A stretch of DNA of 36,165 nucleotides from Bacillota bacterium (GTDB lineage: Bacteria > Bacillota > Sulfobacillia > JAJZYS01 > JAJYTV01). The stretch covers positions 1-36,165 of the forward strand of contig JAJZQO010000021.1 of assembly GCA_021847575.1 (NCBI GenBank), given 5' to 3'. The position numbers were made by a program, and so were the translations under genes. Position 1 is the first letter of the stretch. Each line of letters begins with the position of its first letter. The notes beneath the pieces were generated by a model. That model was given only the letters and a program-made list of their open reading frames with translations, was not told the origin of the DNA and did not search any database. Positions 18,386-21,575 of this stretch are shown in pieces.

Positions 18386-18614
18386 GACCAATTTTTCGCA
18401 TGCAGCGCTGACGCACGACGGTTCGATGCGACGTCGAGAGAGGCCCACGTGGCGGTAGCGGCGGGGTGGTAGCCCAGGTGCGAGCGCGTGGGTAGAGGTC
18501 TTTGGGGCTTGAGCGGTCTGACGCAGAGCCGTAGCGGACGGGGCAGCAAACGCGGAAGCGACGCGACAAGCGCGCCTAGCGGGATGATGTACGAAACGGT
18601 TGGTGCGGCCGGTT

Positions 18615-20027
18615 TCAGAGGATCAGACGGAGTTGCGGTGGGCGGTGACAGATTTCTGTCAGGCGGGCGCGATCGAGCCAGGGCGCCATCATCGTCTCGC
18701 GCAGGAAGCGGATCGTGGCTTGCAGGCCGAATCGCTGGTAGATCGGCCAGAGTCCGTCGACGTGCAGGCTGAGCGTGTTGAGCATCTGGCCAAGGGCGAA
18801 GAGCGCGTGCCAGCCGCGCATCGCGTTCCAGTTGCGAGAGTACAGGTGCTCGTAGTGGTAACCGTAGTGCTTCTCGACGAGTAGATGCTCTTCGATGTCC
18901 CAGCGTCGGCGGGCCATCGCGTTGCAGCGTCGGACGACGTTCTGCTTCGTCAGCGGCACCGACGACACCCAAGCCCACCGGCTCTGCTTGGTCTCTCCGT
19001 CATCCTGCCAGGTCTCCTCGCAGACCACCACGTGGAGCTTCATGTGGTGGTAGCGGTTGCTTTGGTCCTCCCACGTATAGTCGATGTCGTTCACCCACCA
19101 GAACAGTTGCTCGCGGTTGCCCCAGTGGTGGCGGCGCTGGTCCTTCGGGCTGAGCCTGTGCAGTCCGTAGACCTCCTCCCAAACGGAGGGCAGGCATGCA
19201 TCCGGCAGCACGATCATGAAGTCCCAGTGGTAGGCGCGGCAGAGCGTCATCACCGGCCCGTTCGGGTAGAGCCCGTCCATCACCAGAACAAAGCACACCC
19301 GCGGGAAGGCCTGCTTGAGACGCTGCGCCAGCCGCTTGAAAGCTTTATGCTCGCTGTCCTGTTTGGTCTCGGGGCCGGCCGCCGGGTCATTCTCGCAAAA
19401 CTCGAAGAGCAGCGGCAGGCTGACGCCATGCGGGCCGACGAGCACCGCTTCGAGGACGTAGGCCTGATACTTGATGCCGTCCGGCCCGCTCTTCCTGTGT
19501 AAAGCCTCCGGTGCGAAGGTGGTGTCCCCGGTCCACTTCTGCGTGCCGTCGATCGCCACGACATAGCCCTCGCGCGCCAGCCAGGCACCGAGCTTCTTGT
19601 TGCGCATCAGATGGCGGATCGTGGCGATCAGCACCTCGAGGAGGTCCTCGGCCGGGATCTCCTCGAGGAAGCGCGCGACGGTGTCCGCATGCGGGACGGT
19701 GTCGAGGTCGGGGAATACACTCCGCAGGTTCTCCCAGAACGTTGGCATGCTGAGTTCCCGGTTCGCCTGGCGACGCGAGCCGATCTGATAGATCGCCATC
19801 AGCAGGGCGAAGGTCAGCACCACCGCCCCCTTGTGTTTGACGCTGCCGGGACGGCGTGGGTCCGCGAGCTTTGCAAAGCGGGCGAAGATGCCTGGCAGCA
19901 GGGCGCGCAGCACCTGCAGCTGGGCCTCTGCGCTCTCCCGCCTGGCAGCCTGCTCCTCGGCCCCGGTCTTCCAGTGACTCGTGCGATTCGGCAGCGTCGA
20001 CGGATGGACAGCGCTCGGGTTACGCAT
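18615..20027 (-). CDS. DDE transposase (IS4-like / ISNCY-type)
   Basis: The 470-residue protein has the three acidic blocks of a DDE transposase: VVAIDGTQKW (Asp160), VLVMDGLYPNGPV (Asp251) and RRRWDIEEHLLVEKHYG (Glu379/380), the last followed by YEHLYSRNWNAMRGWH. The N-terminal part contains FAKLADPRRPGSVKHKGAVV and GSRRQANRE, seen in transposases that travel with DUF4338 proteins. The ATG lies inside the end of the upstream gene (ATGCGTAA, 8-bp overlap), so the two proteins are co-translated. The frame is intact over its whole length, so the element could be active. I am sure of a DDE transposase and less sure of the IS family. Confidence 0.88.
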   Translation of the reverse strand: MRNPSAVHPSTLPNRTSHWKTGAEEQAARRESAEAQLQVLRALLPGIFARFAKLADPRRPGSVKHKGAVVLTFALLMAIYQIGSRRQANRELSMPTFWENLRSVFPDLDTVPHADTVARFLEEIPAEDLLEVLIATIRHLMRNKKLGAWLAREGYVVAIDGTQKWTGDTTFAPEALHRKSGPDGIKYQAYVLEAVLVGPHGVSLPLLFEFCENDPAAGPETKQDSEHKAFKRLAQRLKQAFPRVCFVLVMDGLYPNGPVMTLCRAYHWDFMIVLPDACLPSVWEEVYGLHRLSPKDQRRHHWGNREQLFWWVNDIDYTWEDQSNRYHHMKLHVVVCEETWQDDGETKQSRWAWVSSVPLTKQNVVRRCNAMARRRWDIEEHLLVEKHYGYHYEHLYSRNWNAMRGWHALFALGQMLNTLSLHVDGLWPIYQRFGLQATIRFLRETMMAPWLDRARLTEICHRPPQLRLIL

Positions 20028-20934
20028 TGTCCTCGTCGCCCGCGATCACCGGCAGCGGCTTCAGCAGCGCCCGGCGCCAGTCCCGCCGCAGCGGGTGGAC
20101 GAAGATCGTCTTCTTGGCCAGCGCATGCTCGTTCTTACGATCTTGCCGGCCGCGCCCCGCCGTCTCGCCGAGGGGCAGCCAGTTCGCCGCCAGGTAGCTC
20201 GTGCCTTGCCACGGCGGTTCCACAAAGGTTTCCAGGAGGATTGGGGCGTAGCCGTAGCGCACAGCCCAGTCCTGCGGCACCTGCCGTGACGCGAGCGAAA
20301 GTACGTGGCTCGCCAGATGCGGAACCTCGATCCCGGGCAGGATCAGAAACCGGCTTTGGTTCACGATCCGCACACGGAATCTCGCGCGCTCTTCCCTGGT
20401 CCAGCCGATCCACATGTCGCGCGCCAAGACCGCCTTCGCCGCGGCCCCGAACAGCATGGCGCCGACGATCCGCTGCTCCTCGCCGTCCTGCACCTTCAGC
20501 CAATACCGCTGATGCGCCCCGATCGGCCGCCGGTAGCCAAGATAGTGATATGCCGCCAGCGTGGCGTTGAACGTGCGCAGTTCCTCTGCCGGCACAGCCT
20601 CCACCGTCACCGGGCGCACCGCGGCGAGCTGCGCCCGGAGCTTCCGCAGTGCGATCGGCGCCGCCGCAGCGTCCGCAAACCCCTTTGGCCCCGTTCCCTG
20701 CTTTCCTGGTAGGCGGATCACGCCCTCCGCCTCCATCTGCATCAGCAGCAGCCGACAGGCATCCACTTTCAACCGCCCGTTCGGCGCCCTCCACGGCAGG
20801 TTCTCGCACAATGTCGCAGCTATCTCCCAGCGACTTAGGCCGCTGAACCGCCGCAACGTCGCCTTGATATGTGCTATGTCCTCCAGGCTGAAGTGTCGGT
20901 CGCCCACCCAGAACGGTTCCTCGAATGTTCGCAT
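20020..20934 (-). CDS. DUF4338 (DruA-like) protein of the mobile element
   Basis: The 304-residue product has an N-terminal helical part (SLSRWEIAATLCENLPWRAPNGRLKV-like, residues 31-56; here SGLSRWEIAATLCENLPW) and the DUF4338 core: YHYLGYRRPIGA (129-140), GAMLFGAAAKAVLARDMWIGW (158-178), NQSRFLILPGIEVPHLASHVL (192-212), LLETFVEPPWQGTSYLAANW (233-252), then GETAGRGRQDR and KTIFVHPL. DUF4338 is the family of DruA, the shared component of Druantia anti-phage systems, but it is often found paired with a transposase as here. No other Druantia genes (helicase DruE etc.) are present, so defence is not supported. A role in transposition, such as target handling or strand processing, is inference. 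The ATG at 20934 is the first start of the frame. Confidence 0.88.
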   Translation of the reverse strand: MRTFEEPFWVGDRHFSLEDIAHIKATLRRFSGLSRWEIAATLCENLPWRAPNGRLKVDACRLLLMQMEAEGVIRLPGKQGTGPKGFADAAAAPIALRKLRAQLAAVRPVTVEAVPAEELRTFNATLAAYHYLGYRRPIGAHQRYWLKVQDGEEQRIVGAMLFGAAAKAVLARDMWIGWTREERARFRVRIVNQSRFLILPGIEVPHLASHVLSLASRQVPQDWAVRYGYAPILLETFVEPPWQGTSYLAANWLPLGETAGRGRQDRKNEHALAKKTIFVHPLRRDWRRALLKPLPVIAGDEDNA

Positions 20935-21022
20935 GAGAGAATGCGCGGGCCCCCTTCGATACCGTCTCCGACGATATCATCGCAGGCCCGCTGCAGCTTG
21001 TCCAGTACCCCTATGCGACGAA

Positions 21023-21575
21023 CTAATCCCAGCCTGTGCCCAGAACCGCGCTCCAACGCGGCCCCTCGCGATGATGCGTCAGCACTGTTTCGCATGGACC
21101 GCATCGGCGCGATGCCTGCAGGGAAACTTGTACGACTTCTTCCGTGCCGGGCGATGTCGGGTGGACCTGCGCCCCGATCTCGCGCCGCCGCAGTTCGGAA
21201 GCCGGCGTCAGCGCAAGGACCTGGCCGAGCTGCGCCTCCGGCGCGTCGACGGTGAAGCGCTGTCCGTCCTTAGCGCGTTGCGGGCGCGCAGGCAGGTCGA
21301 GCGGGGGCAGTTCTGCCACCTCGCGGGTTCGCCCTGATCGCGCGCAGGGCCATGTGGTGCGCACCGCCGCGGCCAAGCCGCTCCCACTGCAGGTCGCGTC
21401 TTGCGACCACGTGGATCTCTGCCCCGGCGCCGCCGGTAGAAAAGGCCGCGACGTCCATCTGGCCGGCTTGGCGGCTCGCAGTTCCGTCCCACGGCTCTTC
21501 GCCCGCTGGCAGCCTAAAGATCAGCCACCAGCCGCATGCGCGCAATCCTGGAAAGGCAGGACGCGCCGCCTGCAC
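21023..21575 (-). pseudogene. frameshifted orphan gene of unknown family
   Basis: Two overlapping minus-strand frames read as one protein with a switch near 21328. The upstream frame contains WWLIFRLPAGEEPWDGTAS and ends near HHMALRAIRANPR. The downstream frame continues REVAELPPLDLPARPQRAKD and runs to VHPTSPGTEEVVQVSLQ and beyond, to a stop at 21023. In both parts third codon positions are nearly all G or C, as in real genes here, while the other frames are not protein-like. One extra base near 21328 would explain the break. The 5' end is also suspect: the frame runs into the hairpin at 21578-21608 without a ribosome binding site. The 3' end lies about 20 bp from the mobile element. I do not recognise the family. 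Confidence 0.45.

Follow-up and report, generated by a model that had tools for sequence, protein, structure and literature searches.

The window analysed here, a stretch of 36,165 nucleotides from a Bacillota bacterium (assembly GCA_021847575.1, contig JAJZQO010000021.1, positions 1 to 36,165), carries an intact insertion sequence (IS) of 2,685 bp on the minus strand at 18403-21087, in which a gene of the DUF4338 (DruA) family precedes and overlaps the gene of a DDE transposase (tnp). The element is of the cut-and-paste type and ordinary as such; unusual is its second gene, whose product, a short DruA, is by profile comparison a GNAT-fold homologue of the Mom protein of phage Mu. Its features, in coordinates of the window, are the following.

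18403-21087, minus strand: whole druA-tnp insertion sequence (scan for terminal inverted repeats and target-site duplications; identical ends in multi-copy relatives)
18394-18402: left copy of the target-site duplication (TSD) TTTCGCATG (same scan)
21088-21096: right copy of the TSD TTTCGCATG (same scan)
18403-18416, plus strand: terminal inverted repeat (TIR) on the transposase side, CAGCGCTGACGCAC (ends of relatives, pattern count in the genome)
21074-21087, minus strand: TIR on the DruA side, CAGTGCTGACGCAT as read on the minus strand (same evidence)
18615-20027, minus strand: DDE transposase with D160 at 19548-19550, D251 at 19275-19277 and E379 at 18891-18893 (Pfam, alignment, Foldseek)
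20020-20027, minus strand: overlap ATGCGTAA of druA stop and tnp start (sequence; kept in relatives)
20020-20934, minus strand: short DruA (DUF4338), predicted Mom-like GNAT of 304 amino acids (aa) (Pfam, AlphaFold 2 (AF2) model, Foldseek, hhalign)
20725-20889, minus strand: N-terminal helical, putatively winged-helix-like region, residues ~16-70 (AF2 secondary structure)
20053-20637, minus strand: GNAT/Mom-like domain, residues ~100-294 (hhalign, conservation among 107 sequences)
Minus strand, DruA residue codons: H130 20545-20547, S209 20308-20310, E239 20218-20220, Y247 20194-20196, N251 20182-20184
20945-20991, minus strand: strong leader hairpin of 47 nt, located after the DruA-side TIR and before the start codon of druA (RNA fold z, aligned copies)

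The ends of the element are given by the inverted repeats CAGYGCTGACGCAY, which match at 13 of 16 end positions, and by a perfect 9-bp TSD on both sides. An unbiased TIR and TSD scan over about 2.6 x 2.6 kb returned these ends as its sole solution, and the ends of multi-copy relatives led to 18403 and 21087 as well. Within the same genome the TIR pattern occurs seven times, compared with zero occurrences of a reversed control pattern; a second copy, internally deleted, lies on contig C5, and otherwise lone ends are present. An empty-site comparison with five genomes of the same genus matched the right flank and left the left flank unmatched, and it revealed no clean empty site. Alternative ends at 18567 and 20991, to which blastn edges and the break of a contig in genome G002 had pointed, were dropped because the TIRs of multi-copy relatives lie further out. 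No Rfam family was found in the region of the element.

The nearest named relatives are Bacillota metagenome-assembled genomes (MAGs). One relative from the phylum with a nearly closed genome (G420) contains two copies (L136 and L137) that are identical across 4,969 bp, a stretch that contains a second, inserted IS; their ends are CAGTGCTGACGCAT...ATGCGTCAGCACTG and they are flanked by differing 9-bp direct repeats, ACACTTGAC and CCAGGACCA. Another copy in this genome (L113) has ends of the same type and its own 9-bp direct repeat, AGTGGCAAA, and a wider scan yielded exact 9-bp repeats for L112, L134 and L228 and an 8-bp one for L141. The first-pass annotation of this DNA had described an apparently intact mobile element at 18565-21002, to be recognised by multiple copies with identical ends and by matching boundaries in other genomes. 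The element is real, with TIRs, a 9-bp TSD and both genes inside its boundaries, but the span given was too narrow; copies with identical ends are present in G420 (L136, L137, L113, L134 and L112, each with its own TSD), and TIRs and TSDs also mark the boundaries in relatives.

The IS inserted in the G420 copies, about 2.08 kb long, lies in opposite orientations at L136 2542-4622 and L113 2687-4767, and at L136 it is accompanied by a 183-bp duplication of flanking sequence. The lone TIR matches in the genome of the window (G000), at C23:41097, C37:117737, C45:87 and C46:32203, are possibly remnants or small non-autonomous elements.

The transposase, 470 aa in a complete frame, matches PF13808 (DDE_Tnp_1_assoc; 40 bits, cut-off 32) and, weakly, PF01609 (DDE_Tnp_1). 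Its catalytic residues D160, D251 and E379 are nearly invariant across aligned relatives, and the six best Foldseek matches of its AF2 model (pLDDT 72) are all Tn5 transposase, the best at 9.9e-10 and the sixth being the Tn5 inhibitor. It is a DDE enzyme with the RNase H-like Tn5 fold, sharing with Tn5/IS4 the fold, the triad and, around E379, R-3-E-6-K of the IS4 motif; it differs in that the Y of this motif is replaced by A and that a Pfam scan gave no match to the Tn5 DNA-binding and dimerisation domains. The DDE_Tnp_1_assoc domain, the TIRs and the 9-bp TSD are features of the ISAs1 family, whose TSDs measure 8-10 bp, and NCBI annotation labels a DruA-containing stretch in Thiodictyon 'ISAs1 family transposase'. 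However, the element has two genes, DruA first, and its transposase stays far below the cut-off of the NCBIfam ISAs1 model (14.6 bits, cut-off 70). Because this named model is not reached, we regard the transposase as a member of an ISAs1-like, Tn5-fold subfamily distinct from ISAs1 proper.

The transposase is translationally coupled to the short DUF4338 protein. The two genes overlap by exactly 8 bp, ATGCGTAA containing the druA stop and the tnp start, and start/stop overlaps of the type ATGCGTAA or ATGA were found again in relatives. Programmed frameshifting was set aside in favour of stop-start coupling, as no slippery heptamer was seen by eye at the overlap. Among 398 genomes of the phylum, DruA lies upstream of all nine full-length window-type transposases with readable upstream sequence (a tenth starts at a contig end and was left out of this count), and therefore this transposase subfamily keeps DruA. 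More distant transposase relatives (<=220 bits) mostly lack it.

Of a broader set of 107 short DruAs, 73 have a transposase next to them or fused to them (19 are fusions), and 34 are without a detectable one. The latter are a mixture of genes at contig ends, DruA-only elements, single-copy genes (L198) and a syntenic pair (L170, L218), and the 25 of 61 Pfam families listed for their neighbours include no transposase. Two DruA-only elements have kept their TIRs, namely L183 4851-6589 (1,739 bp, 8-bp TSD) and L196 2726-3863 (1,138 bp), and these, being without an intact transposase, have apparently been moved in trans. A strictly obligate pair is ruled out by the solo DruAs; DruA is a detachable module rather than an obligate half of a pair, since 34 of the 107 stand without a detectable adjacent transposase. 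The 8-bp overlap, the complete frames and the conserved residues of the first-pass annotation were all borne out. Its 'clearly' two-component system holds in so far as the DUF4338 gene lies inside the element and the coupling recurs (nine of nine, fusions, overlaps), and fails where strictness is concerned. DUF4338 homologues without a transposase, which it had taken to speak against a transposition unit, do occur in part; some of the 34 lie at contig ends or are DruA-only derivatives with element ends, others being present in single copy or in synteny. Separately, L120 and L121 represent the same 330-aa DruA region in G008 and G003, genomes of the window's family, and no partner was recognised.

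The DruA frame is complete and matches PF14236 (E 5.8e-27, 95 bits, cut-off 27). DUF4338 has already been assigned to GNAT (PMC10853773), and the Foldseek matches of the AF2 model (pLDDT 87) are GNAT structures, among which Mu Mom (8bv8) takes rank 6 with a query TM-score of 0.39, the top value among the 50 matches listed. Searching the sequences of the PDB with the DruA profile returned no match. When families were compared by hhalign, short DruA matched 13 Mom proteins at 94.8% (P 4.9e-8, 163 columns), and PHROG 1384, 'Mom-like DNA modification protein', was matched by the DruA of L089 with E 2.6e-8. In the alignment, H58, S124, D149, Y159 and N163 of Mom fall on H130, S209, E239, Y247 and N251 of DruA; H58, D149, Y159 and N163 are invariant active-site residues of Mom, and S124 is the residue changed (S124A) in 8bv8, a PDB entry titled 'inactive mutant'. 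H130, R195, S209, E235, T236 and Y247 are invariant in 107/107 short DruAs, and N251 is kept in 101/107. By these comparisons short DruA is a GNAT-fold homologue of Mom in which the active-site pattern of Mom is conserved. The likeness extends to the fold, a profile match over the full domain and the positions of HY, S124, D149, Y159 and N163 in Mom, and Mu is itself a transposing element. By contrast, DruA has an additional N-terminal domain, L-A-S where Mom has N-x-E-S, an invariant E235-T236 and an IS transposase beside or fused to it, and its activity on DNA is a predicted one.

Short DruAs stand beside or are fused to at least eight transposase families (ISAs1, the window type, IS66, ISAzo13, IS4/Tn5, IS4_1, IS701 and IS1634), with ISKra4 found once. 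DruA is fused N-terminally in ISAzo13 (L149), IS4/Tn5 (L108), IS701 (L102), ISAs1 (L147) and IS4_1 (L165, L173, L203) proteins; it lies upstream of or overlaps transposases of IS66 (L107, L100, L106), IS4/Tn5 (L089), IS1634 (L163) and ISKra4 (L190), and at other loci it is found downstream of IS66 transposases. In a single Accumulibacter genome, DruA lies inside 12 near-identical copies of an IS66-type element, which have GTAAGTATTCGG ends and are flanked by 8-bp TSDs. On the DruA tree, a quick tree of 107 rows with approximate likelihood ratio (SH-aLRT) support only, the partner families require 11 changes, most fusions form single clades, and the ISAzo13 fusions are nested within a clade of window-type pairs that has full support. 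In the fusions to IS701 and ISAs1 transposases, the N-terminal region of DruA is shortened and the GNAT core is kept.

The hosts of these loci include Bacillota, Pseudomonadota, Acidobacteriota, Thermodesulfobacteriota, Armatimonadota, Chloroflexota, Planctomycetota, Actinomycetota and an archaeal MAG. Four loci with DruA were found on viral contigs, and no DruA of the short type was found in the phage collection. The DruA parts of L165 4953-7307 (a DruA-IS4 fusion of Candidatus Argoarchaeum) and L166 4953-5996 (DruA and a transposase fragment in the partner bacterium Eth-SRB1) are identical, which reflects either transfer between the partners or a binning error.

The Druantia DruA is a long form of about 390 aa or more. 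Its PADLOC representative (DruA1) matches the short DruA profile at 2.8e-10 and belongs to the same Pfam family, and it does not match Mom (0.19); the DruA of the window matches PADLOC DruA weakly (0.0035). Long DruA lacks the Mom pattern, showing LLGGKL where short DruA has LASH, and TTSAxGRSSIYN where short DruA has ETFVDxxxxGTCYxAAN. As short DruA matches both groups and long DruA does not match Mom, the short form is the bridge between the two. The locus in the window is no Druantia defence system: partner genes such as DruE are absent from the vicinity of the element. The long DruAs that PADLOC recognises were without a neighbouring transposase of the tested kinds. An IS-borne short form that bridges Mom and Druantia DruA is consistent with the earlier suggestion of a recruitment of DruA from mobile elements; the direction is left unshown because no rooted tree joins Mom, short DruA and long DruA. 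What the first-pass annotation overlooked is the most informative point: the protein is a GNAT resembling Mom and carries the active-site pattern of Mom, which Druantia's DruA has lost.

On the mobility and anatomy of the element, the coupling of its genes, the Mom homology, the active-site pattern and the repeated pairing with unrelated transposases rests the proposal that short DruA is a Mom-like DNA base modifier working with its transposase, to which we would give an even chance. DruA would act on DNA rather than on a small molecule and would attach a chemical group to bases within the element or close to it, be it at the element ends, on the excised intermediate or at the target. The modified bases would shield the intermediate against host nucleases or restriction, or would mark the element's DNA for the transposase, and the N-terminal helical domain would probably bind DNA. 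Base modification as the activity, the base concerned and its use in transposition are inferences. The wider proposition, in which transposition in eight or more unrelated DDE families would have a portable Mom-type base modifier as an integral subunit that marks the DNA of donor, intermediate or target, and Druantia DruA would be a derivative without the Mom active site, is put forward only tentatively.

Several points weigh against base modification. GNAT enzymes have many substrates, and about a third of the short DruAs (34/107) have no adjacent transposase, so that the enzyme can serve without one. The position of Mom D149 is D or E in 99/107 DruAs and thus not strict, and the match of the window's DruA to PHROG 1384 is weak (0.0045). 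Mu Mom as a single sequence is weak against short DruA (0.034), with RimI (0.063) and SpeG (0.45) as controls without a match; these controls compare fairly with the single Mom run and less so with the family-level value of 4.9e-8. Because such single-sequence scores are weak, the Mom evidence rests on profiles.

DruA could instead be a non-catalytic accessory subunit, whose helical N-terminal domain and GNAT fold would bind DNA or transposase in end recognition, target choice or assembly. The helical domain of the AF2 model, the repeated fusion and tight coupling to transposases and the obligate presence of DruA with the window-type transposase fit such a role, which we nevertheless consider unlikely, as six residues of pocket type do not vary among the 107 sequences from many phyla, which is typical of catalysis, and as the IS701 and ISAs1 fusions shorten the N-terminal region yet retain the GNAT core. 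If DruA were an independent passenger with a role of its own, e.g. in defence against phages or rival elements, and unneeded for transposition, its family name, its homology to Druantia DruA and the existence of solo chromosomal copies would be accounted for. N-terminal fusions to at least five transposase families and a conserved start/stop overlap would however be unusual for a passenger and Druantia partner genes were not found near the element, which makes this explanation improbable. We likewise judge it improbable that DruA controls transposition by modifying a protein, such as its transposase or a DNA-binding protein of the host: in a fusion the substrate would be at hand in cis and Foldseek also finds GNAT matches to protein and polyamine acetyltransferases, but the sequence profile matches only the Mom family and not RimI or SpeG, and the partner transposases are unrelated and offer no common protein substrate.

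The leader hairpin upstream of druA folds with a z of -4.9 in the window and -4.5 in the second copy, and alignment shows it kept in two copies besides that of the window. A promoter-like site would place the transcription start inside the hairpin (one found, 0.3 expected). In analogy to IS10 and IS50, it may block translation from read-through transcripts and so guard against read-through expression. The neighbour genes of the element are ilvN, KARI, a leuA-like gene, DUF2512 and a chemotaxis receptor; the right flank at 21157-21434 matches a gene region that is conserved ahead of DUF2512 in the five genomes of the same genus and is apparently a decayed gene in the window.

Neither the DruA-transposase module nor the Mom link was found described in the open-access papers searched, subscription papers and ISfinder lying outside this scope. 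For defence-gene surveys, DruA matches need to be split into long and short forms, as the short form marks insertion sequences and not Druantia. We know of no function for DUF4338, the hallmark of Druantia, and the proposal, if true, would provide the first biochemical hypothesis for this family. Likewise, the separate case of phage Mu aside, no IS-encoded protein is to our knowledge connected with base modification in transposition; if the proposal is true, many bacterial transposons would include the modification of DNA bases as an inherent step of their movement.
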